DNA from: Symbiodinium sp. CCMP2592
Taxonomy: Eukaryota > Sar > Dinophyceae > Suessiales > Symbiodiniaceae
NCBI GenBank assembly: GCA_905221615.1
Contig: CAJNDT010005996.1
Coordinates: 1-64,000 of the forward strand
DNA: 64,000 nucleotides
Direction: 5' to 3'
Below, one piece after another: positions 31,555 to 43,955 of this stretch (the first letter of the stretch is position 1; the number at the start of each line of letters is the position of its first letter). The position numbers and the translations under genes were made by a program. The notes under the pieces are model-generated. The model ran no database searches. It had not been told where the DNA came from and worked only from the letters and a program-made list of their open reading frames with translations.

Positions 31555-31559
31555 ACTAC
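31555..31559. repeat. Target-site duplication (left), ACTAC
   Basis: ACTAC directly abuts the left LTR and is repeated at 43,951-43,955 directly after the right LTR. Five base pairs is the usual duplication length for Ty1/copia integrases. Confidence 0.93.
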
Positions 31560-31711
31560 TGAAGTTTCCCAGGCTACCAGCTAGACACGGCAAGTAACCG
31601 GTAAGTCAACCCTTGTGACCTTTTTACACGGGGGACTTGGGCCAAGTGCAGTCGCGTACAGACATAGCTAAGGACCATAGGAATAGCAATGGAGGCAGGG
31701 TAAAATCTACA
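31560..31711 (-). repeat. 3' LTR, 152 bp
   Basis: On the minus strand it starts TGTAGATTTTACCCTGCC and ends GGGAAACTTCA. It is identical, without indels, to 43,799-43,950 (constant offset of 12,239). It is very short for a copia LTR. Confidence 0.95.
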
Positions 31712-31860: not shown

Positions 31861-34800
31861 TCAGCGCCTATGGGTGCGGTTCCATGCATCCCACTCGGCC
31901 TGAGTGTAGCCTCCACGACGCTGGCGATAGTACTCGTCCCACTGGGCCTGAGTATAGCCTCTATACATTGGCTCAGGTGCTGTCGTGCGACCACGTCCCT
32001 TTTGGGATGGGCGGTTCTGGACTGCAGCCTGGCGATTGCGCTCTGCCAAACGTTCCGTTTGGTCTGTCTGGTTCTGAGCACTACGGAGGCTATCGGTAAG
32101 AATCTGGCCGATCTCAGTTGTGATGCCTTCAGTTGTGGTAGCCGACACATAGACCTCGCCGTCGAAAGTCAGGATCCTTTTCGCAGCATCATTCACTGCT
32201 GCCACCTCAGCATAGAGTCGCGGAGGGAGGAATGCTCCGAGGTAGGTCAAGCCGATGGGGACATCCGCGGTATCATCGATAAACCGCAAGTTCCTCAACG
32301 GCTCCACTTCGCAGTGGGCATAATAGACCAACTTCGCTGGCGGGACATTGCCACCACCATAATGGGAGCCGGCACGCAAGTAGCGCTGCTCCTCGCTGCG
32401 TCCTGGATCGGGTAGCACAGCGTTCGACAGGTGATCGAATTTCTGCATGTCCTCGAAGTTGCGGCCCTCTTGCATCATCCTCACGTTGAACTGCGCGTCC
32501 TTCTCGAAGCGGTCGGACACGGTGTCAAAGTTCAACTTGGCGGCCCTGATCTTTCGGTCTTTGGCGTCACGAATGGCGGCAGCCTCTGCGCTCATCTGAC
32601 CACGCTTCTTTGGTCCCTCGCCCAGGCCTCGAAGGTCACTCGCAAGGAGATCATCGATGGGCTTCTGAGCTCCGGTTGCAGCGGTGGCAAGAAGGCGCTG
32701 GCGAAGTCTCGAATTCTCAAAGACTCGCTTCGTGATCTTCTTAGAGTCATCCGTCTGGGGAGCCTTGCAACGGAGGCAGAACAGCATGCCATTGGCGACG
32801 ACTGCTGCGCACTCACGGCATGGGTGTGAGCCAAGTGGGTATGGCTCATTCTCACCCGCATCCGTTGTATCGCCTTCGTCGACTTCAACCTCAACCTCAA
32901 CCTTGGTTTCGTCAAGGTCGAATGCACCAGCATCATCAGCAGGCTCACCCTCGCGGGTGGCTTCATCCAAGTCCATGCTTTCGTCTTTTTCGGCGATTGC
33001 GGCGGGCTTGGGAACCACCTTCGGCATCTTCTTTGAAGCAATCGCTTTGGGAGCGATAGCCGCCTGTTTTGGAGGCGGTGCCGATGATGAGCTTGCTGCT
33101 GCGGCCTCCTCATAGTCGCGCTTGGCGCGGAAAATGCGCTCTGGCTCACCCTCGCGGGCGGCTTCTTTGTGCTCGGCGACATAGAGCGGGAGGTTCTTCT
33201 TGCTGGTGTCGACGGCGGACAGCACGCAATCGGGCGGCACATTGTCCCGTGTGAGGACGCCGTCTGTCTCCGTGACGAAGAAGACACATCCAGCGGCGAT
33301 TGCTCGCTGCGTATCTATCGTCAGCTCGATCGGCTGGTTGGAGCGCATTCCACTCTTGTAGTGGGTGTCGTCCAACTTGTACGGGGACAGGTAGTTGTGG
33401 GACCTGTCTGACCTTGCGGAGCCGGCGATCATGCCATCGCGGAGGATCCCCTTCATTCCCTTTTCATTCGTGCGATGGAAGAGCTTCGGGGGGGTATCCT
33501 CACGGGAGAGTACGGTGACCCCCCTGACGCTGCTCTGCAGGTCGGCCTCGTACTCGGACAATCCGCTGTAGAACCTGGTCGCGAGGAAGAAGTCCGCGTC
33601 CGGGTTATTGCCGATGAGCTTGGAGTTGTGCCCTTGGGCCATCCTCACCCGCACAGGGAATAGCGGCTGACCCAGGGTGTCCTTCATGGGGACATCAATG
33701 CCCAAAAGCCTGATCCGTCCCTTGTTATCGGCTTTCGCTGCTCGTAGCAGCTGCCTCACACCCCAGCGTGCGTTCCGTGCCGTGTTGAAGACCTGGAGCA
33801 GAGTGTCAACGTCTGCCCAGCACCCACGGTCAAAGATCAATGCAGGGAAGTCGTCCATTTCATGGCCACGCAGCAGCTTGGTGAGGAACTTCAGGTCACC
33901 GTGTTTGAACGTCACGTGCCTGTCTCCCACAATGTCCTCCGGATTGAAGGGCTTCATCAAGTGCTTCTTGCCGTTGTAGAAGTACTCATTCGGAAGCTCT
34001 GGCACAGTGGCAGCCCCTTGCGGGGCGCTTTCATCAATGAACATGAGCCTTCGCATGGCGTCCTCATCGCGGTCAGACTTCTTAGTCTTCTTGGGAGGCG
34101 CTGGCTCAATGACACGTCCAATCGATGATGGGATGGGGTCGACTTGGTCGCCCTCATCCACCAGTTCCACCGTGCCCGGGGTATTGTAGGATACCTTACC
34201 GTCTGCGTCCTGGGTGACAATGTCATTGACGCACTCCGCAACAGCACTAACATCAGTGGTTGCACCGATCCTTGGCACATCCTTGCGGATGGCTTTATCC
34301 ATGGGTGGCCCCTCGGAGATCTTGGTGACGTCGGTTGCGTCAGCGGCATCTGGGGCTTCCCACATCTTGTCCTCCTGGGTGACCGGCATTGGCTTTGCCT
34401 GTTTCGGGTTCATGAGCTGGTCCTTCTCCGCACGCCACTGCTTGAAGACATCCTGGAGCACTGGATTGTTGGCACCGGAGCCAGTCTCAAAGTGCTCATA
34501 GCGAACAAGCAAAGCCCTGACACAGGGTGTCATCTTCTGGGCAAGCCATTCGCTCCTGCTTGCATTGAAAGTGGCATGCAAGTAGGTCTGGAATAACTCG
34601 CGGTTGCGAGGGTCTTCACTGGCGTGAAAGCTGTCATACATTTCCAGCTTTTCGACCAAGGAGCTCGCGGTTTGCACTTGCAGACCGCGCTGCCTGAACT
34701 CTTCGAACATTGCGGCATTGAAGTCGTTGTAGGCTGAGTGGAGTTGGAACAAGTCCGCCTCCACCTGCCCAATCACCTTCACAAAACCAATGTCCGGCTC

Positions 34801-37800
34801 GCCCGCGAGGGCGGCTAAAACATCCGCTGCCCTTCTCACTTTCCGGGCGACGGTCTCCGTTGTGACATTGGGATCTCTATAGGCGAGTCCCGGTCCTAGC
34901 CGCGTGGGGATGCAGCCCCACTGGCCGGAGATCTCGTTCCCGCACCACCAGCAGATCACGTCGATGGTGTGGTCCGGATAGTTGGTCCGAAGCTCCTTCA
35001 CATGCTCCTCGACCTGCCAGACAATCCACGCCAAGGTTTTGCCCCAACACATGGTGTAGCGAGTCTGTGCCCATCCCAGCGTCATGCTTGCGATGTTCAC
35101 TTCCGCATCCAAGTCGGCCTTGACGAACACTCCCCGCCTGTTCTTCTTGCAAAGTGCAGTGGAGCTGTCTGACACGACTATGATGGCTCGCTTGGCCTTG
35201 GGGCTCAACCTTGCCGTTGGCTTCAACTTGGCGAGTCCCTCGTCACTGAGGTCAGCCATCAGGCGCAGAGCCACACAGGTTGCGTCGGCATGGGTCAAGG
35301 ATACCCCAGCCGCGCATTGTGTGGATACGCAGCTGTACGCCGACTCCAAGAGCTGGCTCTCATGATCGGCGCCTAGCGAAATGATATCGTTGTTGAGGGC
35401 GGCGGATTGGAGAATGGTTTTCATGGCCTTGGTAACTCCAGCCCTGTCTGCTTCGGAGGTGTTGACCCTGCAGAACTCGTCGCTCACAACGATGGCTGCC
35501 ATCCTGGGGATCGTAGAAGTCTCTTCGGGCAAGTCGGGAAGATCAGAACCAGCTGAAATTGCAATGGCAGGCGTGCACATAAAGGAAGTCAAGATTTCAT
35601 GGTCAAGGCTTGCAGTTTGTTGTGTGTTTGTGCACTCGAGCGATGTGTGTGCAAACGAATCATTTTCGAAACGAGAACACGGTTTGTTAAGCCTACCCCC
35701 CTCATCGAGAGGGGAACCAACACACCTCAAACAAACCATTGCCTTCTGAGCTGGGAGCTTCAACTGAGCCGTAGGCAAGAGGAACTGTGATTGATGTAGG
35801 AATTGCTTTTGCTTTTTGTTGAACTTCTGGTACCCCCCTGAAGAGTAGGCGATGAAGGAATGTCGTTCGCCAGTGTAGGGTTGTACACCATGTTTTGTCG
35901 ATGGATGCAACAGAGTAGGCTTGCGGTATGTGCAATTGTAGCCTTTGTGGTCTTTGCCATGATCATCCGTGTATATTCCCGGTGGTCCCAACTGGCTCGC
36001 GCCCTCAATCCACAGTGTCCCCCCTGTATAGTTACCGAAGGAGAACGTCAGGTTGTACGATTCTTTCTGATTGTACTTATCCGTGTGGATGCGGGCCTTG
36101 CCATTGAAGTTGAACACGAACGAAGTCCATGTAAACCCTTTCGGAGATGATCGCTTAACAAATTCATTCACATACCTGCAAATCCATGGGTAATGTTTTG
36201 TGCGGTTGGTAATACCAAAGCACCCACCATGGACCCAAGCGCCGAATACCAAGTATTTGGATATCTTCTCAGAAGCCATAAACGATCGCGGTTTTGCCAA
36301 TGATGCCTTGAGATTGGTACGAATAAGCCCAGCTAGCTTCTCGAAGGTCTTGAAGCTGTAATCGTTAGCCTCGAACGATTGTTTAGCGAAGTCCTCGACA
36401 ACCTTTGATGCATCCGGAGCTGCTGCTACCGAAACCTTGTTGTCAACCTCGACCTTCGACTCGGGTTTGCACCCGGCTACGTTCGCGCTGGTTGTATGTC
36501 CAATAAGCTTCAAGGCATGCGTCCACTTGTTCTTTTCAGTGAAAGGCTTCGTGAATACATCCGCCACTTGTTCGGCTGTACCAACATTCAGTAGCTTGAA
36601 ATGCCCAACCTCATATTGCTGCTTTAGCCATGAGAAACTCACCCTCTGTGTCCGATCAGTATGTCGTAGAACACCAGCTTGCCCTAGCAACAAAAGAGTG
36701 ATAGTCGCCTGGTTATCCTCCATATGTCTAACCTCGAAGCTTTCAGGAAGTTGGACACAGAGGCCGTTGATGTCTGCGATTGACAACCCATCCGGTCTAG
36801 TGGACCCATAACGAATTTCGTCAAGTTCAGGGTCAATGCGTGCAACTATCGAATCCACCCTCTCAGCCCTTGGCTCGGCCTTGCGGCCGGCATCTCCACG
36901 CCATAGGAAATACCACAAGCTCAGGCAAGGTAGACCTTCGGCACGTAAACCGTGGTTCGCTGCTACAACTTCGGACTCAGTAGAGCTCATTGTGATAGAT
37001 GTTTGTTTCTTGCTGAAGGCATTGAGGGGGAAGTACGTGTTTGGTCTGACCAAAAACATCGCACATCCTGTAGTCGATTTTGAATCGAATTCGCCCGCAA
37101 AGTCGGAATCACTGAACAACCAGAGTCTGCAATCCATTATGCTGTCGCCTATGAAACCGCTCATAGTGACATCAAGCGAAGAGTTTATGTAGCAAACCAA
37201 CCTGTGAAGTCCCAAGTCGCAATCTGGACTCCACTTGGTCACCCTCGACGCCAAAGACTGTGTTGCCCTTAGAAGATCCCATCTGGCCATGCGAGCAGCG
37301 AACAAAATCTTCATTAGCACCTTACTAGCAATAGGTTGCAAGCGCCCTGCCTTCTCTCCTTCGGAAGCTGTTGGCAAAGCCACACGTAGCTCATGGAAGG
37401 GGGTTGCAGCTGGTTTCAGGGTCTTACGCTCTACCTTAGCAAGCTCGCAGTACCGATCGACGCAAGAGTCGAGAAAGTCCTTCATATCGTACGTGATGCG
37501 AGTGACTGGCTTGGTCATAGCACCGGGCTTCTCTTTAACGTCTTGCGACAAGGTAACAAACTTGCTCTGCTTCGCCTCCTTTTTAGCCTCAGACTTGTTA
37601 CGAACCGGCTTGCCCTTGCGGGCAGCTGCAACTGCCAGCTCGAAATCAGACTGTTCCCGGCCTGCGAGGTCGAAGTAGGTTTCGCCGTCCCACCAATCCT
37701 GAAGACAGCGATCGCGCATTTGATTGCAACTGTCAACAACAACTTCCTCCGACTCACCCTTGCGGGTGGCTTTAGCCACCACAGTGTATCTCCGAGGGCC

Positions 37801-39345
37801 AATCCCCGGGAACATTCTAGCATCATCCTCGTTGGGGACATAAAGTCTTTTGCGAGGATAACGGTGATGTCGGATTGCTATGAGATTCTCAGGGTCAATG
37901 TCCCAATAATCTTCTTTTCTAGCAGGAGTTGCAGCTGATGATTCGGGCTCAAACACGTGACGAAAAGGGTGTGCTTCCTTGGGCAGCTTGAGGTTGTGTT
38001 CTTCCTTGTGCATGCACCCAAAGTATCTACCAATGGCTTCCGGAAGATCCATATCAATGACGCTCGAGATCAAGTCCCATCCCTCCTTGATAGAGTTCTT
38101 AGGGCCAGCGAGTTTAAAGTCATCGACGTATACCACTAAAAGCAGCTTCTTCTTCGGGTGGTAGAATACACTCTTCCAAATGTCAGTCAATACTGCCTCG
38201 AACCCGACTTTCTTCAACTCAGCTTCGCAGTGATGTTCCCAAATCCCCCCTGAATCGGGGTGTCCGTAAAGTGCCAATTTGAGTGGAACGACAGGATCTT
38301 TCATGCCCTGCCATGCCTTAGGCCAGCGATTGCGAGGCAACCGTACCCAAGTGGCAACTCCTTGGAACAAGGCTTGGGTGTATGCTTGCTTGGCGTCGGC
38401 CTGCTGGATGACGTAACCAGGTTGTGAGCCGAAGACGTCTAGAATCTTTCCTGCTTCCATAGATGCAGGACTGCTCGACATCTCCGCGAAGAGCGCGTGA
38501 TCGGCGTTTTCGTCAAGTACTTTGTTTCCCTGAAATACCGAACGTCCCTTATACTTACGATTAGGGTCACCTTCTTTCAGCTCGGCTCCCTTTAGGGTAC
38601 CAATCTCAAAAACATTGCCAAAGTGAACCTTGGTTTGAGATTTCTTAGCTTCGTTGGCAACCGACTCGAACTCCCTGACTTTGCCTTGTACCCAGCAGCC
38701 CTTGTCAACCAATTTCTGCCACTCCTTGTCCATGGCAGCCTGCGCCTTAGGGTTTGTTGAAATCTCCTTAGACGACAGGACCTTGGCGACAACAGCATAC
38801 ATCTCGTCTGCGATCTGAAAAAGCTTCTTGTCATATAGCCCTTTAAGTCGTTCCCGATGTTCCTCGCTACACCCATGTAGGACTGGCATTGCAGGTACCA
38901 CCTTTACAGCTTCACGGTACAGTGCCTCATTCTCCTCATGTAGCTTCTTCTCATGTTCTGCAATTGCTGTTGCTCTTTGTCTTTTCGACATAGACTTCCA
39001 TGCAGTATGATCAATAGCGTCAGGGCGGTTCTTGTTGTTCTTTTTGACCAAACATTCCCCACTCCACGCATAACCATACGGTGGTTCTTGCGCTGCTACT
39101 GCTGCCCTGGACTTCAGCTTCTGCTTCACAGAGAACGGAACATCATCAAGCAATGCTGCACGGGAATCAGACTTTGACTCACCCTTGCGGGTGGCTTCTT
39201 TCGCGTCCTTCGGCGGAGGATCTTTATCACGATCAGGACCAAATAGCTCTGGGAACATTTCATCCAGGTCTTCGCTAAGTTGTTCCTGAATTGTGGCTTC
39301 ATCGTATCCCCCCTTCCTCCAGAGGAGGATGCGGGTTTTGCTCAT
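31861..39345 (-). CDS. Copia Pol C-terminal polyprotein: RT, RNase H, dioxygenase-like, SGNH-like?, Tpt1/KptA-like, zinc ribbon
   Basis: The frame is open from 39,759, but the first ~140 codons overlap integrase in another frame, so the real part starts near 39,345-39,298. Residues are numbered from codon 39,759. RT spans about 340-610, with the catalytic YVDD at 544-547 and the LALYGHPDSGGIW segment of copia RTs. RNase H spans about 875-1060, with D884, E928 and D1015. A 2OG-Fe(II) dioxygenase-like domain spans about 1136-1310, a possible SGNH-like region about 1524-1685, and a Tpt1/KptA-like domain about 1945-2165. A low-complexity acidic/Ala-rich linker follows, then a zinc ribbon (C2314, C2317, C2328, C2331), a basic helical region and a C-terminal duplication (YTQAQWDEYYR / YTQAEWDAWNR). 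The product acts in reverse transcription; the role of the extra domains is unknown. Stop at 31,861. Confidence 0.9.
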   Translation of the reverse strand: MSKTRILLWRKGGYDEATIQEQLSEDLDEMFPELFGPDRDKDPPPKDAKEATRKGESKSDSRAALLDDVPFSVKQKLKSRAAVAAQEPPYGYAWSGECLVKKNNKNRPDAIDHTAWKSMSKRQRATAIAEHEKKLHEENEALYREAVKVVPAMPVLHGCSEEHRERLKGLYDKKLFQIADEMYAVVAKVLSSKEISTNPKAQAAMDKEWQKLVDKGCWVQGKVREFESVANEAKKSQTKVHFGNVFEIGTLKGAELKEGDPNRKYKGRSVFQGNKVLDENADHALFAEMSSSPASMEAGKILDVFGSQPGYVIQQADAKQAYTQALFQGVATWVRLPRNRWPKAWQGMKDPVVPLKLALYGHPDSGGIWEHHCEAELKKVGFEAVLTDIWKSVFYHPKKKLLLVVYVDDFKLAGPKNSIKEGWDLISSVIDMDLPEAIGRYFGCMHKEEHNLKLPKEAHPFRHVFEPESSAATPARKEDYWDIDPENLIAIRHHRYPRKRLYVPNEDDARMFPGIGPRRYTVVAKATRKGESEEVVVDSCNQMRDRCLQDWWDGETYFDLAGREQSDFELAVAAARKGKPVRNKSEAKKEAKQSKFVTLSQDVKEKPGAMTKPVTRITYDMKDFLDSCVDRYCELAKVERKTLKPAATPFHELRVALPTASEGEKAGRLQPIASKVLMKILFAARMARWDLLRATQSLASRVTKWSPDCDLGLHRLVCYINSSLDVTMSGFIGDSIMDCRLWLFSDSDFAGEFDSKSTTGCAMFLVRPNTYFPLNAFSKKQTSITMSSTESEVVAANHGLRAEGLPCLSLWYFLWRGDAGRKAEPRAERVDSIVARIDPELDEIRYGSTRPDGLSIADINGLCVQLPESFEVRHMEDNQATITLLLLGQAGVLRHTDRTQRVSFSWLKQQYEVGHFKLLNVGTAEQVADVFTKPFTEKNKWTHALKLIGHTTSANVAGCKPESKVEVDNKVSVAAAPDASKVVEDFAKQSFEANDYSFKTFEKLAGLIRTNLKASLAKPRSFMASEKISKYLVFGAWVHGGCFGITNRTKHYPWICRYVNEFVKRSSPKGFTWTSFVFNFNGKARIHTDKYNQKESYNLTFSFGNYTGGTLWIEGASQLGPPGIYTDDHGKDHKGYNCTYRKPTLLHPSTKHGVQPYTGERHSFIAYSSGGYQKFNKKQKQFLHQSQFLLPTAQLKLPAQKAMVCLRCVGSPLDEGGRLNKPCSRFENDSFAHTSLECTNTQQTASLDHEILTSFMCTPAIAISAGSDLPDLPEETSTIPRMAAIVVSDEFCRVNTSEADRAGVTKAMKTILQSAALNNDIISLGADHESQLLESAYSCVSTQCAAGVSLTHADATCVALRLMADLSDEGLAKLKPTARLSPKAKRAIIVVSDSSTALCKKNRRGVFVKADLDAEVNIASMTLGWAQTRYTMCWGKTLAWIVWQVEEHVKELRTNYPDHTIDVICWWCGNEISGQWGCIPTRLGPGLAYRDPNVTTETVARKVRRAADVLAALAGEPDIGFVKVIGQVEADLFQLHSAYNDFNAAMFEEFRQRGLQVQTASSLVEKLEMYDSFHASEDPRNRELFQTYLHATFNASRSEWLAQKMTPCVRALLVRYEHFETGSGANNPVLQDVFKQWRAEKDQLMNPKQAKPMPVTQEDKMWEAPDAADATDVTKISEGPPMDKAIRKDVPRIGATTDVSAVAECVNDIVTQDADGKVSYNTPGTVELVDEGDQVDPIPSSIGRVIEPAPPKKTKKSDRDEDAMRRLMFIDESAPQGAATVPELPNEYFYNGKKHLMKPFNPEDIVGDRHVTFKHGDLKFLTKLLRGHEMDDFPALIFDRGCWADVDTLLQVFNTARNARWGVRQLLRAAKADNKGRIRLLGIDVPMKDTLGQPLFPVRVRMAQGHNSKLIGNNPDADFFLATRFYSGLSEYEADLQSSVRGVTVLSREDTPPKLFHRTNEKGMKGILRDGMIAGSARSDRSHNYLSPYKLDDTHYKSGMRSNQPIELTIDTQRAIAAGCVFFVTETDGVLTRDNVPPDCVLSAVDTSKKNLPLYVAEHKEAAREGEPERIFRAKRDYEEAAAASSSSAPPPKQAAIAPKAIASKKMPKVVPKPAAIAEKDESMDLDEATREGEPADDAGAFDLDETKVEVEVEVDEGDTTDAGENEPYPLGSHPCRECAAVVANGMLFCLRCKAPQTDDSKKITKRVFENSRLRQRLLATAATGAQKPIDDLLASDLRGLGEGPKKRGQMSAEAAAIRDAKDRKIRAAKLNFDTVSDRFEKDAQFNVRMMQEGRNFEDMQKFDHLSNAVLPDPGRSEEQRYLRAGSHYGGGNVPPAKLVYYAHCEVEPLRNLRFIDDTADVPIGLTYLGAFLPPRLYAEVAAVNDAAKRILTFDGEVYVSATTTEGITTEIGQILTDSLRSAQNQTDQTERLAERNRQAAVQNRPSQKGRGRTTAPEPMYRGYTQAQWDEYYRQRRGGYTQAEWDAWNRTHRR
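33265..33927 (-). other. Domain: Tpt1/KptA-like RNA 2'-phosphotransferase
   Basis: Both halves of the family fold are visible. The N-terminal winged-helix part has LKFLTKLLRGHE...GCWADVDTLL, a K-G-R-I-R-L strand and VRMAQGH, which matches the family signature IRAxQGHS. The C-terminal ADP-ribosyltransferase part has LFHRT, GILRDGM, SGMR, a FFVTETDGVLT strand-turn and NVPPDCV. Of the family's essential Arg-His-Arg-Arg set, the three Arg are present (R1964, R2039, R2139). The His that normally follows the first Arg is Gly1965, with a His one residue later. Known members transfer an RNA 2'-phosphate to NAD+, and some ADP-ribosylate nucleic-acid ends. Finding one inside a retrotransposon polyprotein is unusual. 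Confidence 0.82.
34705..35190 (-). other. Domain: possible SGNH/GDSL-like fold
   Basis: The order AIIVVSDSST (S1532), a later WWCGNE (N1608) and LHSAYNDFNAAMFEEF (H1674) resembles blocks I, III and V of SGNH hydrolases. The block II glycine and the usual D-x-x-H spacing are not clear. A shorter upstream stretch (AAIVVSDEF) has a similar strand. I treat the assignment as a guess from motif order; it may be an unrelated Rossmann-like domain. Confidence 0.25.
35830..36354 (-). other. Domain: 2-oxoglutarate/Fe(II) dioxygenase-like (DSBH)
   Basis: Residues about 1136-1310. The iron-binding triad is visible as H1225-T-D1227 and H1290, with R1299 nine residues later, the usual place for the 2-oxoglutarate-binding Arg. 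The strand after HxD reads SYNLTFSFGNYTGGTLWIEG, the G...GG-x-L pattern shared by prolyl-hydroxylase-like and TET/JBP-like oxygenases; HGVQPYTGERHSF is the typical distal strand. Substrate class is not settled by eye. TET/JBP-like nucleic-acid oxidation is attractive because dinoflagellate DNA carries much 5-hydroxymethyluracil, but a protein hydroxylase is equally possible. Confidence 0.72.
39298..39345 (-). other. Integrase/RT frame junction with G6 run
   Basis: In the sense direction a CCTCC-TCT-GGAGG palindrome (39,316-39,328) is followed by AAGGGGGGATACGATGAAG. Integrase stops here, and RT continues in the frame reached by a +1 step. One base fewer in the G run would fuse the two. It is either a homopolymer indel (biological or technical) or a second recoding site. 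Confidence 0.7.
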
Positions 39346-40642
39346 CAAGGACATTGTGATGTTGTGCATCAAGGCTTGGTGGTTTATCCAAGGCAGGCTC
39401 TTGCAACAAAGGAAACTTAAAGTCACCATCTGGTAGCTCCAGTCTCTTAGTGCGAAACACACGTAGATCTTCGTTTTCCAACGCGGCTTCGATGTTGTGT
39501 AGGGGAGCAACAACGTACTCAAGCTTGAAGATAAAACCAGGTTGGATGTGATACCCAAGGAATATACCTTCAATCCCTGCGCCAGAAAACTTGGATCGTT
39601 CAGGCTTGCGTTGCTTCTTCGGGGCCCAATAGAGGACTTTCGCTCCAAAGGGAATGCGCGTGCCGTTGAACTTTTCACCGTACCTGATTTCCCACGGAAT
39701 CTGACCATTGTCAATCCTCGCAGTGATGTTAAGACACATAGCATGATGTTGCGATGCAAGAGGCCAATAGCGATCTGGAAGTCCTGATTGCACTAAATTG
39801 GCCCGTGTGCCTTCCAAAATGGTTCTGATTTCTCGCTCGATTACGGCCTTATGTTCGTTCACATACTCCCTAGAAGTGTTGTGACGAGCGCGAAGCTGTC
39901 TGGCCGCAAAGTCAAACTCCAACGCATTGTCGGAATATATAACCTTTACCTCATCATCTGTACCAAGGAAGTGCAACATGTCTTCGTAGCACTGCTCACC
40001 AGACTTTGTCTTGGAAGGGTACACGTATCTAAACTTAGAATACACGTCCTTCACAACATGAGCCACGGTTTCATCTTGGAACCCATAATCCTTGGCACCA
40101 GCGGTCACGATGTGATCTACTGTGATGTGGTCACCGAACGATTTACTGTAGATTGTAGAGGATCCACCAGATTTACGCGCCTGGGGCGCATACATCTTGG
40201 CCCTTTGGCAAATTGGGCAGAACGGATTCTTTGGTCTATGGGTAAGTCGATGTTCCAAAGACACAGCCTCAGCCCTCAAGGAAGCTTCGTCCTTTTTAGA
40301 CTTTGGCATTGTGTATGGCTCGACATCGCTGTCGGCTTGCGCCTCAACTTCCCCTTCAGGCAAAGCAAACAATGTGATAGTCGCAATAGTCCCTTCAGGT
40401 ACTTCCCCATAGATTCCGTCCAATTCGTCAATGTTGACTGAATCCTCCAACAAAGACCACACGTCATCCTTGAATCCCCAAGTAGTCCGGATTCTATACC
40501 TTGGGAACTTAGGAGCCGGTGTTCGAAGCGTCTTTGGGAAATGTGCCACCTTAGCAGCGGGGCTGCCGTTGATGACAGTCCAACCTGCCTTTAGCAGTTG
40601 CCTCGTTTCCACCCCAGGAATGGGAGGAATGCAATTCGCCAT
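39299..40642 (-). CDS. Copia integrase (with zinc-binding and DDE core)
   Basis: Inserts the DNA copy into the genome. Residues are counted from the first ATG at 40,642; the frame is open upstream to the -1 shift site, so the protein is probably made as a Gag-Pro fusion. The zinc-binding motif is H131-x3-H135-x6-C142-x2-C145. The catalytic triad is D176 (ITVDHI), D238 (YSDNALEF) and E269 (AVIERE), 30 residues after the second Asp. The C-terminal part has KVLYWAPKK and GIFLGYHIQPG, as in copia integrases. It ends at 39,299 in a stretch where the RT frame overlaps. A G6 run 5' of the stop suggests that a single extra base separates integrase from RT. Confidence 0.93.
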   Translation of the reverse strand: MANCIPPIPGVETRQLLKAGWTVINGSPAAKVAHFPKTLRTPAPKFPRYRIRTTWGFKDDVWSLLEDSVNIDELDGIYGEVPEGTIATITLFALPEGEVEAQADSDVEPYTMPKSKKDEASLRAEAVSLEHRLTHRPKNPFCPICQRAKMYAPQARKSGGSSTIYSKSFGDHITVDHIVTAGAKDYGFQDETVAHVVKDVYSKFRYVYPSKTKSGEQCYEDMLHFLGTDDEVKVIYSDNALEFDFAARQLRARHNTSREYVNEHKAVIEREIRTILEGTRANLVQSGLPDRYWPLASQHHAMCLNITARIDNGQIPWEIRYGEKFNGTRIPFGAKVLYWAPKKQRKPERSKFSGAGIEGIFLGYHIQPGFIFKLEYVVAPLHNIEAALENEDLRVFRTKRLELPDGDFKFPLLQEPALDKPPSLDAQHHNVLDEQNPHPPLEEGGIR

Positions 40643-40718: not shown

Positions 40719-40750
40719 TGCCCTTGCGGGCAGCTGTTTACCGAAAACCC
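40719..40750 (-). promoter_or_regulatory. Programmed -1 frameshift site (Gag-Pro to integrase)
   Basis: Sense order: slippery heptamer G_GGT_TTT in the Gag-Pro frame (40,750-40,744), CGG, stop TAA (40,740-40,738), then the hairpin TGCCC-GCAA-GGGCA (40,732-40,719). The spacer is about 11 nt, or 9 if the stem is extended with one bulge. The heptamer fits X_XXY_YYZ, and the downstream frame is exactly -1 and open into integrase. Confidence 0.72.
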
Positions 40751-43635
40751 GAACCGGACTTGACAGAGGTCGGTGCAACCTTGCTGCCATCAGATTCTGA
40801 GGACTTTGCCGCTAAGCATGCCATCAATGGTCCTCGGTCGCCAAATACGGGGACATTGCCTCGGAGTTGGCAAATCATCTTCTGACCGTCTGGGCAAATG
40901 AAATATGGCGCCTCACCCGCTGGCCAGTGGAAAGAGAACCCCTGTTCCATGCACTTCTTTCCTACAGAGCAAACTGCAGGTGTGTTGGGGAGCTCAACGA
41001 ACTGCAATGGGTTCCTCAATGACTCAATGTAGACCTCATGCTTGGTATCAGCGTCTACTGGTCCGTTAGCAGTGATCAAACTCACTGGGTTGGAAGCAAC
41101 CTTCTTAGCCTTGCCCTTGAAATGGGCCTCCAAATCAGAGTGACTAATCAGATCTTCCTCGCTACCGGTGTCTGCGATGATTTCGAGGTTTTCACCTGTC
41201 ACCGCCGCTGCAGCAAGTTGGGGCAGGGGAATTGCTTCTTTGCAGTGAGTGCAGAATCCTTCTCTACCCCGACACCTGTAGTTACACTTGACCCGAACCT
41301 TAAGCTTCATCCCGTTCACTGCTGATTCCAAGTGACGGGCATTCTGCAAAGCTTCTTCGGTGTCCTCTGGAATTGATGGCGGGCATAGCTCCGCAGACTT
41401 GTACCTGAATTCGAACTTGTGCTTGTCTGGTACGAAGCTCCAACCTTCACCTTCAGGCGGGATGTCAATGATTTCTGGCCTTAGGAACTGGACCTTTCTG
41501 CTTCGGGGCTTTCCGGCAGGGCCCTTGCGGGCTGCTACTGCGTAGGCTTTCCCAGCATCGGCCGGTGGCTCACCCGTGAGGGTGGCTGTGAGGGAGAGAC
41601 AGCATGCGGCTGGCTTGTCCTCACTCTTTGGCCTTTTCTTACTGGGTCGCCTGCGCTTGCCGGAAGGCGATCTCTTCCCGTCCTTGCCAGCCTTATCGCC
41701 TTTGGCCGGGACAGAGGGAGCGGCATCCTTGTGCATGAATGGGCAATTCTTACCGTTCTTGCAGGTGCCTTTGGGGAAAAAGATGCAAGGAATCTTGGAG
41801 GTGTCCTTCTTCTCCCCACCTTTACCGCCTTTACCTCCACCTTTTCTCGAAGGGGTACGTGGAGGTGTTCTGCCCCTTGTCTGTTCAGGAGTAGGCTTCA
41901 CGTGCTTGTATGGGCACTTATCACCTCGTGGGCACTTCCCACGCTGGAAAGCGTAGCAGGGCTTATCCTGGCTTCGGCCGCGAGGGGTGTTCGGGGTATC
42001 CGAAGGAGCAGGGGCACCGAATCTAGCACCGTGAGCTTTGGCGATTGCTGTGCGGTTTTTGCGAGTCCTATCTCTTGCCAACAGCTCTTTCACGCGTTTG
42101 ACCAAGTAGTCATAAGTGCGCTGCTCTGTTCCTTCCTTAGCCCTGTCGTAAACTTCCAGATCAAACTTGAGCTTGCTAGCATTGCGAAGCTGCCGAAGTA
42201 GAATATCTCTCAGTGTAGTCTCCTCGGGTTGGTGGTTCAACCCCGCGATGACCGACTCCCAATTGTGAATGAAAGTGCTAAGGTCATCACCATTCAACTG
42301 CACCTTGAGAAGATCTTCTACAGAGTAGAGGGAACCTGCTTCCTCGTTGGTCTTAAAGTAGTGTTCGAACATCAGTAGAACCTGTCTACCACGAACGGCC
42401 CTACCAGCAGCTGCCTCAGACTCTTTGTAGTTAATGATCTGTCGTCCAAGATCACCTCTTGCGACCCTCGAAAGCGCCGAAAGGATCTTTGTGTCCAAAG
42501 TGAGGAATTTACCCGTGTCCCTCAACTTCTCCGGATCGGCGTCCCTGGAGTAAACCTCTTGAACCCATTTGAATGCCTCATCGGGTCTGTCCGATGCTGC
42601 CCGAACGGCCTCCCTAACCGTGATCTTCCAACTCCTGTAAGTCTCCGGGTTAGGGAAGTCGGGTAGCTTCACCGTTTCGGCTTCCTTAGCCTTGGGTTTG
42701 TCATCGTCAGGCTTCTGGATAACCGACTTGAGTGCTTCAGCGAGAAGTACGCTAGGCTCTTTGTTTTCAGTAGCTTCTGCCGGTTCTTTGTTGTCACTCT
42801 GTTCAGCAGCAGATACCGCTACATTGTGGGCCTTGGAATCCTCAGGCTCACCAATGTCATACCGTTGGGTCCTTCCCAAAACCGTCCGAAGCGACACAGG
42901 AATCTCCCTGGGGTTCGGAAGGGTCGGAATCCATGAATGACTAGGACCCTGAACAAGCGGCGCTGCGGCACCACCTTGCGGTGGGCTTGGTTGAAGCTTG
43001 GAGCTCTCACTGGGATCGACTTTCACCGGCACGGCACCACCTTGCGGTGGGCTACTCTCCGCTGTCGACAAGACAGTCCTGAGTGAGTCGACCTCAGCTA
43101 TAAGCTCCGCATTCCTGTCCTGCAGGTCATCAACCAAGCTATCGTACTGCTGTGCCTCAGAGGTTAGCCTATGGTAGTACTCATTCTCTTCCCATTGAAG
43201 CTTTTCCTCAAACTCAGACCCTAAAAAGGCAATCATCTCACTGTGGTTTTCTTCGATACTCGAGCGCAATTCCGCGAAACGGCGTTCATGCTGTCTGTTT
43301 TCCGCAGTGAGCGTGCGCGCTGCTGCTTCCAGCTCGGACCGATGTGCATCAAACTGCATGGCCATAGACCTTTCATCATGACTTTCCCTTTGTGCGCGTG
43401 CCAGCTGTGCCTGCAGCTCATTGGCTGATTGTCGTTCTGCTCGGGCGATTGTCTCTAGCACTCGTACTTCGTTGTGTAGCTGTCCCACCAACAGGTGTGT
43501 GGATTGGCTCACAAATGCTAGCTGTTGACGATGATTCGCACCCGCTGTTGCCTCTAGGTGTGCAATGTATGCATTGGCTTCGGCGTACACGTTGTCCAAT
43601 ACAAATCGATGTCTTTGTTCCGCGCGAAGCTCCAA
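40738..43635 (-). CDS. Copia Gag-protease
   Basis: Structural protein plus processing protease of the retrotransposon. Residues are counted from 43,635, where the codon is TTG; the frame is open to 43,728 without an ATG. An ATG at 43,772 lies in a different frame with a protein-like start (MDIVPFTTAAGNNG), and a C5 run near 43,650 may hold a lost base. About 1-190 form a long coiled coil. The Gag core spans about 310-540. Two CCCH fingers (C-x7-C-x5-C-x3-H, from C560 and C617) take the place of the usual CCHC knuckle. A basic region and then an aspartic protease with A-D822-T-G-S follow. It ends at TAA 40,740-40,738, six nt after the slippery site. Gag is normally in one frame with Pol in copia elements, so the -1 arrangement is notable. 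Confidence 0.9.
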   Translation of the reverse strand: MELRAEQRHRFVLDNVYAEANAYIAHLEATAGANHRQQLAFVSQSTHLLVGQLHNEVRVLETIARAERQSANELQAQLARAQRESHDERSMAMQFDAHRSELEAAARTLTAENRQHERRFAELRSSIEENHSEMIAFLGSEFEEKLQWEENEYYHRLTSEAQQYDSLVDDLQDRNAELIAEVDSLRTVLSTAESSPPQGGAVPVKVDPSESSKLQPSPPQGGAAAPLVQGPSHSWIPTLPNPREIPVSLRTVLGRTQRYDIGEPEDSKAHNVAVSAAEQSDNKEPAEATENKEPSVLLAEALKSVIQKPDDDKPKAKEAETVKLPDFPNPETYRSWKITVREAVRAASDRPDEAFKWVQEVYSRDADPEKLRDTGKFLTLDTKILSALSRVARGDLGRQIINYKESEAAAGRAVRGRQVLLMFEHYFKTNEEAGSLYSVEDLLKVQLNGDDLSTFIHNWESVIAGLNHQPEETTLRDILLRQLRNASKLKFDLEVYDRAKEGTEQRTYDYLVKRVKELLARDRTRKNRTAIAKAHGARFGAPAPSDTPNTPRGRSQDKPCYAFQRGKCPRGDKCPYKHVKPTPEQTRGRTPPRTPSRKGGGKGGKGGEKKDTSKIPCIFFPKGTCKNGKNCPFMHKDAAPSVPAKGDKAGKDGKRSPSGKRRRPSKKRPKSEDKPAACCLSLTATLTGEPPADAGKAYAVAARKGPAGKPRSRKVQFLRPEIIDIPPEGEGWSFVPDKHKFEFRYKSAELCPPSIPEDTEEALQNARHLESAVNGMKLKVRVKCNYRCRGREGFCTHCKEAIPLPQLAAAAVTGENLEIIADTGSEEDLISHSDLEAHFKGKAKKVASNPVSLITANGPVDADTKHEVYIESLRNPLQFVELPNTPAVCSVGKKCMEQGFSFHWPAGEAPYFICPDGQKMICQLRGNVPVFGDRGPLMACLAAKSSESDGSKVAPTSVKSGSGFR

Positions 43636-43783: not shown

Positions 43784-43798
43784 CTACGGCTGATAACC
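43784..43798 (-). promoter_or_regulatory. Primer-binding site, possibly for a half-tRNA
   Basis: Directly after the 5' LTR the sense strand reads GGTTATCAGCCGTAG. Its complement CTACGGCTGATAACC folds as a tRNA anticodon arm: stem ..CGG / CCG.., loop CTGATAA with U33 and A37, anticodon GAU. Drosophila copia is primed by an internal tRNA fragment cut in the anticodon stem, and this looks like the same strategy. The tRNA identity is inferred. Confidence 0.55.
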
Positions 43799-43950
43799 TG
43801 AAGTTTCCCAGGCTACCAGCTAGACACGGCAAGTAACCGGTAAGTCAACCCTTGTGACCTTTTTACACGGGGGACTTGGGCCAAGTGCAGTCGCGTACAG
43901 ACATAGCTAAGGACCATAGGAATAGCAATGGAGGCAGGGTAAAATCTACA
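43799..43950 (-). repeat. 5' LTR, 152 bp
   Basis: Same sequence as the 3' LTR at 31,560-31,711. It should contain the promoter and polyadenylation signals; no clear TATA box is visible, which is normal for dinoflagellate genes. Confidence 0.95.
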
Positions 43951-43955
43951 ACTAC
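43951..43955. repeat. Target-site duplication (right), ACTAC
   Basis: Matches 31,555-31,559. The empty site can therefore be written as ...GCATCGC-ACTAC-ACCTCCTCC.... Confidence 0.93.

Follow-up and report, generated by a model that had tools for sequence, protein, structure and literature searches.

What does a domain of the Tpt1/KptA family of RNA 2'-phosphotransferases do inside the polyprotein of a retrotransposon? The question is raised by a Ty1/copia-type element with long terminal repeats (LTRs) on the minus strand of the window, by which we mean the whole stretch of 64,000 nucleotides (nt) analysed here (Symbiodinium sp. CCMP2592, assembly GCA_905221615.1, contig CAJNDT010005996.1, positions 1 to 64,000). 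A copia lineage has captured a Tpt1/KptA-like domain within an extension of about 1500 amino acids (aa) that follows ribonuclease H (RNase H) in Pol. The explanation that best covers the whole, to which we give a probability of about 0.5, is that the captured domain would act while the element replicates itself, drawing on NAD+ to attach ADP-ribose to an RNA end that bears a phosphate. The analysis shows family homology, a modelled two-lobe fold and co-linearity with reverse transcriptase (RT); the domain is under purifying selection and keeps the first Arg and the residues of the NAD lobe, and the element has a primer-binding site (PBS) of the half-tRNA type. Three features carry the identification:

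31861..39759, minus strand: Pol, an open reading frame of 2632 aa (its TTG start is mechanical)
38017..38562, minus strand: reverse transcriptase (RVT_2), aa 400-581, Pfam E 2.6e-8
33247..33891, minus strand: Tpt1/KptA-like (PTS_2-RNA) domain, aa 1957-2171, with R1964, H1966, R2039, H2095, T2097 and R2139

A first-pass annotation, made from the letters alone, had placed such a domain inside Pol at 33265..33927. These bounds stand on the minus strand, where they correspond to aa 1945-2165 of the frame, except that the profile match continues a few residues beyond the low end; the plus-strand frame has stops. The profile search it proposed gives a significant match across the family's length (Pfam PTS_2-RNA, PF01885, E 2.2e-12; 47.8 bits, with the cut-off at 26; positions 8-176 of the 177 in the profile), co-linear in one frame with RVT_2 (34.2 bits against a cut-off of 31.6). 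Both halves of the family are present and in the order then read, with LLRG-H starting at aa 1962 (33876), VRMAQGH at aa 2038 (33648), FHRT at aa 2094 (33480) and SGMR at aa 2136 (33354). A single-sequence phmmer search of the PDB at E<=1 listed only Tpt1/KptA chains (6 of 6, best 1.9e-5), the best match scoring in the C-terminal lobe only. Structure prediction, also proposed at the first pass, yields the two lobes of the family, an RNA lobe and an NAD lobe; TRPT1 provides the nearest solved structures to the model, and the RNA lobe of the window-type domain carries insertions relative to the Tpt1 family.

The domain occurs in six element families of one genome: the copia families A (the window type), A2 and A3, and the families B, C and D, which are described below. 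A whole-genome family search scored 150 of 1550 first-look candidates and gave 152 matches, and 37 kind-A loci were fetched (L024-L060). By hand counts, which are lower bounds, kind A accounts, at >=95% identity, for at least 33 of the 139 rows of a further genome search, and A2, 32-34% identical to the window domain, for at least 77 of the 139; in another search at least 99 A3 rows rank before the first row below 85% identity. Frames run mostly up to about 3190 aa in A2, one copy of which (L072/L073) lies on the window's own contig, and to about 3166 aa in many A3 copies. As far as read, both families have the layout of kind A. The PTS_2-RNA profile matches A2 (E 8.4e-10, positions 30-176) and A3 (E 3.1e-10, positions 21-172); in an A2 frame it scores E 2.9e-8, with RVT_2 under its cut-off (E 0.041, 13.9 bits), and in the A3 locus L078 the RT/RNase H region is 60% identical to that of the window. 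A survey of RVT_2, in which the best 150 of 5766 candidates were scored, all at >=96.5 bits, gives no share of copia elements with KptA, because kinds A and A2, at only 34 and 14 bits, fall outside it. Protein relatives from other sources are 72% (P0017), 68% (P0021, which spans the N-terminal half only) and 61% (P0019) identical; all three keep LLRGHE, to which P0017 and P0019 add HRT and SGMR.

The active site departs from that of the family. In the window Arg1964 is followed by Gly and then by His1966, with R2039, H2095, T2097 and R2139 at the remaining positions, so that, as had been noticed, Gly occupies the place of the canonical His and a His stands one residue on. Among the 37 kind-A loci the first Arg (R18, as numbered in CthTpt1) and the displaced His are each kept in 36, the one locus without the Arg differing from the one without the His, while R68, H101 and R121 are kept in 37 and T103 in 36. 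The A2/A3 set comprises ten A2 loci and one A3 locus, a wrecked copy (L071, 40% identical to the window domain) having been excluded. All 11 keep R18, H101, T103 and R121, and thus the HxT that holds the NAD adenosine ribose, as kind A also does (H 37/37, T 36/37). At the His19 position, however, they have Asn (10) or Ser (1), and at the R68 position Gly (10) or Cys (1). In the aligned A, A2 and A3 rows Tyr replaces the second His of RxHxH. Because the Arg-His-Arg-Arg tetrad is out of its canonical spacing in the window, through the Gly inserted after the first Arg, and has lost His and second Arg in A2/A3, the window domain is called a divergent Tpt1/KptA homologue, judged from its sequence, rather than a canonical 2'-phosphotransferase.

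The domain is under constraint. Ratios of nonsynonymous to synonymous substitution (dN/dS), obtained by the Nei-Gojobori method on copia domain loci, are 0.04-0.11 in 18 of the 21 pairs among seven kind-A loci, the remaining three having saturated synonymous sites. Six A2 loci give 0.05-0.17 in 15/15 pairs; a seventh, L061, forms saturated pairs with the other six, and A2 pairs with the A3 locus are either saturated or at 0.26-0.39. A2, which lacks His19 and Arg68, is thus constrained nearly like kind A. Across P0017, P0019 and P0021 the KptA lobes are 53-73% identical, equal to or above the linkers (44-65%) and below the RNase H region (91-94%).

Kinds B, C and D are probably LINE-like (long interspersed nuclear elements), since an endonuclease and RVT_1 accompany the domain. 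Kind B has a 665-667-aa frame (PTS_2-RNA E 6.7e-41) with a sub-threshold PARP half-match (4.8e-4); at locus L009 the frame 3' of the KptA frame matches RVT_1 (1.3e-22), with an endonuclease match (0.0044) under cut-off, and at locus L011 (3-1061 and 3138-5138, plus strand) the upstream frame matches UCH, ubiquitin C-terminal hydrolase (4.4e-11). In kind C, PTS_2-RNA (1.2e-44) and Exo_endo_phos (1.3e-10) share a single 1501-aa frame, and the annotated protein P0023 combines both with RVT_1. Kind D has PTS_2-RNA (1.7e-39), Exo_endo_phos (1.2e-5) and RVT_1 (1.3e-18) in neighbouring frames. Another protein, P0027, carries PTS_2-RNA, Exo_endo_phos, RVT_1 and UCH. The full tetrad is present, by eye, in the 15 B/C/D loci read; in P0037, a partial protein of kind B, the LRH stretch is missing. 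S. microadriaticum, KB8 and CCMP2456 have yielded kind-B proteins too. For these kinds the reading of selection rests on diverged pairs, twelve of which (with L019 or L001) give dN/dS 0.09-0.17; among close pairs, values rise to 0.64 in kind C, where dS is about 0.06, and one kind-B pair gives 0.28, which recent copies would be expected to show.

A further locus, L002, looks like a host TRPT1 gene, its LLRH exon lying upstream of a probable intron. In the trees, from which B_P0037 (first tree) and B_P0037, B_P0036 and C_P0023 (second) were removed beforehand, copia KptA forms one clade (support 100/99), and a second, of LINE KptA and the host-like gene (91/82), stands separate from four bacterial or phage rows. 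The test weakly rejects a single retroelement clade from which the host-like gene is excluded (p-AU 0.021); LINE alone gives p-AU 0.027 and the C, D and E_L001 rows together 0.119, in tests whose groups were named after the tree was seen. Because branches are long, the trees are only suggestive of separate copia and LINE captures.

How might such a domain serve its element? It would take NAD+ and add ADP-ribose to a phosphorylated RNA end during replication, the likely substrate, within the particle, being either half of a cut tRNA-Ile or RNA of the element itself. Kind A, with its Arg, displaced His and two further Arg, may carry the reaction on to complete removal of a 2'-phosphate; in A2/A3 it should tend to halt at the ADP-ribosylated RNA end. 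LINE-like elements, with the full tetrad, could treat the ends of their own RNA in the same way. According to passages of PMC6333775, R18 of Tpt1 is needed in both steps and R68 mostly in step 2, H19 of the Runella enzyme adds little to step 2, and H101 and T103 hold the NAD adenosine ribose. As A2/A3 keep R18, HxT and R121 and have dropped H19 and R68, the simplest reading is that they still transfer ADP-ribose without resolving it. A wider version, in which at least two independent KptA captures (LTR and LINE-like) mark a general RNA-end step and in the copia branch an enzyme that stripped off 2'-phosphates came to leave ADP-ribose behind, as a cap or tag on the RNA of primer or genome, is tentative; the copia change is suggested by the loss of Arg68, the step-2 residue, while purifying selection continued.

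Several observations weigh against ADP-ribosylation by the copia domain. In human TRPT1, passages of PMC6582358 report, Ala at any one of the tetrad residues (for example H41A or R86A) abolishes ADP-ribosylation of a 5'-phosphate, and A2/A3 may accordingly be inactive and kept for binding. Even in kind A, R18, the displaced His and T103 are each lost once among the 37 loci, and the Arg139/Arg140 positions are not Arg, which is also true of E. coli KptA.

Of the competing explanations, the one that survives best, although we consider it doubtful, is that the domain heals the primer: a tRNA-Ile half left by a nuclease would lose the 2'- (or other) phosphate at its 3' end, so that RT could prime from it. 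Counterparts of all four tetrad residues are kept in kind A, and the primer site is of the type expected:

43785..43798, minus strand: primer-binding site GGTTATCAGCCGTA, directly inside the 5' LTR, pairing at 12/14 positions with the tRNA-Ile(AAU) anticodon arm

In 4/4 other kind-A copies examined the end of the LTR is followed by the 13-nt core of this site, GTTATCAGCCGTA. The core also occurs, placed by its sequence, in the A2 element L079, and right after it the sequences part. Genes for tRNA-Ile(AAU) were obtained by searching the genome with a tRNA pattern, one being confirmed by ARAGORN. The half-tRNA primer suggested at the first pass is borne out insofar as the PBS is complementary to an internal tRNA region: 12 of 14 positions pair with the anticodon arm TACGGCCAATAACC, and 1 of 2000 shuffled primers did equally well in the same gene. 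Of the two mismatches, one falls at A34, a base that would pair with C if converted to inosine. The AAU gene read has C33 and 2/7 acceptor-stem mismatches, so that a better-fitting primer gene may have been missed, and tRNA-Ile(GAU) pairs nearly as well (11/14). What is supported is a half-tRNA primer probably ending near nucleotide 40, the exact tRNA being Ile(AAU), Ile(GAU) or another. Drosophila copia uses a half-tRNA, according to passages of PMC5371799.

Primer healing suits kind A well. It is weakened by A2, which shares the 13-nt sequence yet lacks His19 and Arg68, and by the LINE-like kinds, which keep the domain although LINE elements use no tRNA primer. The half-tRNA of copia, moreover, probably comes from RNase P, with a clean 3'-OH. 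Capping or ADP-ribosylation of nucleic-acid ends, which the first-pass annotation had offered beside primer-tRNA repair, appears to fit the whole element set better.

Two side observations concern these tRNA genes. The tRNA-Ile(AAU) genes with C33 (on contigs such as C2009, C2384 and C2639) are spaced at about 8.2 kb, as if in a tandem array. A tRNA-Ile with a GAU anticodon (L082, C5051:1840800-1841000) lies on a 3-Mb contig; such a tRNA is unusual as a nuclear eukaryotic gene.

It is unlikely that the domain blocks or reverses a host defence based on RNA ends or ADP-ribosylation, or ADP-ribosylates a host target. Counter-defence would account for its presence in different element types of one genome and for the UCH protease and sub-threshold PARP half-match beside it in kind B, and passages of PMC9503650 place KptA in picorna-like and nidovirus polyproteins. 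The low dN/dS speaks against an arms race at the domain surface, without excluding one.

That the copia domain, above all in A2/A3, merely binds RNA ends or ADP-ribose is improbable as well. His19 and Arg68 are gone in 11/11 A2/A3 loci, and the human R86A and H41A proteins are dead in the 5'-phosphate assay, but R18, H101, T103 and R121 are kept in all 11 and in 36-37 of the 37 kind-A loci despite the 32-34% identity between A and A2, and H101 and T103 are the residues that grip NAD. A chance fusion or decaying host gene without function is highly implausible, and is rejected on dN/dS of 0.04-0.17 unless the loci measured are unrepresentative: some copies are broken, with stops in several search rows and the integrase-like part out of frame in the window, but frames are long and open in many others (11/139 at exactly 2977 aa), six families carry the domain, and the diverged relatives examined are not the degraded copies that the first-pass annotation had named as its refutation.

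ADP-ribosylation of an RNA end remains our preferred reading. The substrate should be an RNA end that arises during retrotransposition, and strong selection on the captured domain suggests that RNA-end chemistry matters to element copying. The persistence of Tpt1/KptA in organisms without a known 2'-phosphate pathway is called elusive in passages of PMC6582358; mobile elements in which KptA stays strongly constrained, across several families of a single genome, offer a natural and testable setting for its role.

The rest of the element is laid out as follows:

43951..43955, no strand: target-site duplication GTAGT (minus-strand reading), 5' side
43799..43950, minus strand: 5' LTR, 152 nt, TG...CA
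40738..43635, minus strand: Gag frame, 965 aa, two CCCH zinc fingers (Pfam zf-CCCH E 1.5e-10 in two stretches; Torus also matched)
39299..40642, minus strand: integrase-like frame, 447 aa, with H..H..CxxC and D..D..E by eye
36490..37359, minus strand: RNase H region, aa 801-1090, name and boundaries by eye
35800..36282, minus strand: 2-oxoglutarate (2OG)-Fe(II)-oxygenase-like segment, aa 1160-1320 (HTD...H...R), by eye only
34465..35202, minus strand: SGNH-hydrolase-like segment, aa 1520-1765 (SDSS, GNE, DSFH), by eye only
32740..32844, minus strand: zinc-ribbon-like CxxC...CxxC, aa 2306-2340, by eye
31560..31711, minus strand: 3' LTR, 152 nt, same sequence as the 5' LTR
31555..31559, no strand: target-site duplication GTAGT (minus-strand reading), 3' side

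The LTR ends were read from a direct repeat of 153 nt (31559-31711, 100% identical to the 5' copy). TG...CA ends and a 5-bp duplication are those of Ty1/copia, and with identical LTRs flanked by that duplication the insertion looks young. The integrase-like frame, whose motifs we take to be those of integrase, has only a Pfam match under cut-off (SH3_retrovirus, E 0.044) and, despite the identical LTRs, is not in frame with Pol in this copy. Because of this, and because Pol (2643 aa from stop to stop) is shorter than the 2977-aa frames, the window copy is probably not autonomous. Profile searches gave no match for the RNase H region and, in PDB and Pfam, no support for the 2OG-oxygenase and SGNH readings, which remain by-eye leads; these two segments are 71-75% and 58-73% identical, respectively, across P0017, P0019 and P0021, and their joint AlphaFold2 model is poor (pLDDT 36). 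The zinc-ribbon-like segment has a weak DZR match under cut-off (E 0.21), in the A2 relative only. Between 26 and 46 kb in the window no Rfam family matched at its gathering score, and ARAGORN found no tRNA in the window.

Among the papers listed in searches of the open-licence literature, none reports a KptA, RNA ADP-ribosylation or 2'-phosphate enzyme borne by a retrotransposon. Of the two closest parallels, the first is viral: passages of PMC9503650 describe KptA within the polyprotein of a replicating RNA element in Beihai picorna-like virus and a Botrylloides leachii nidovirus, but these carriers are RNA viruses and not retrotransposons, and the main text of that paper uses neither "retrotransposon" nor "retroelement". 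The second, repeated enzyme capture by Symbiodinium elements, is seen in the cytosine methyltransferases of dinoflagellate and charophyte retrotransposons; the enzyme is a different one, and according to passages of PMC5890265 the Symbiodinium Copia lack any DNA methyltransferase (DNMT) domain, whereas the copia elements here carry KptA. With Tpt1/KptA/TRPT1 (PF01885) itself the window domain shares the two-lobe fold, the order LRx..VRxxQGH..HxT..SGMR and a significant profile match; it differs in lying within a retrotransposon Pol, in the Gly between Arg and His, in its RNA-lobe insertions and in Tyr for the second His of RxHxH, and A2/A3 differ further in lacking His19 and Arg68. To our knowledge, plain copia has no such extension after RNase H. 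Drosophila copia and Ty1/copia elements generally are matched in RVT_2, in LTRs with TG...CA, in the 5-bp target-site duplication and in a PBS of the half-tRNA type, but the window element adds about 1500 aa after RNase H, which hold KptA and two further conserved segments.
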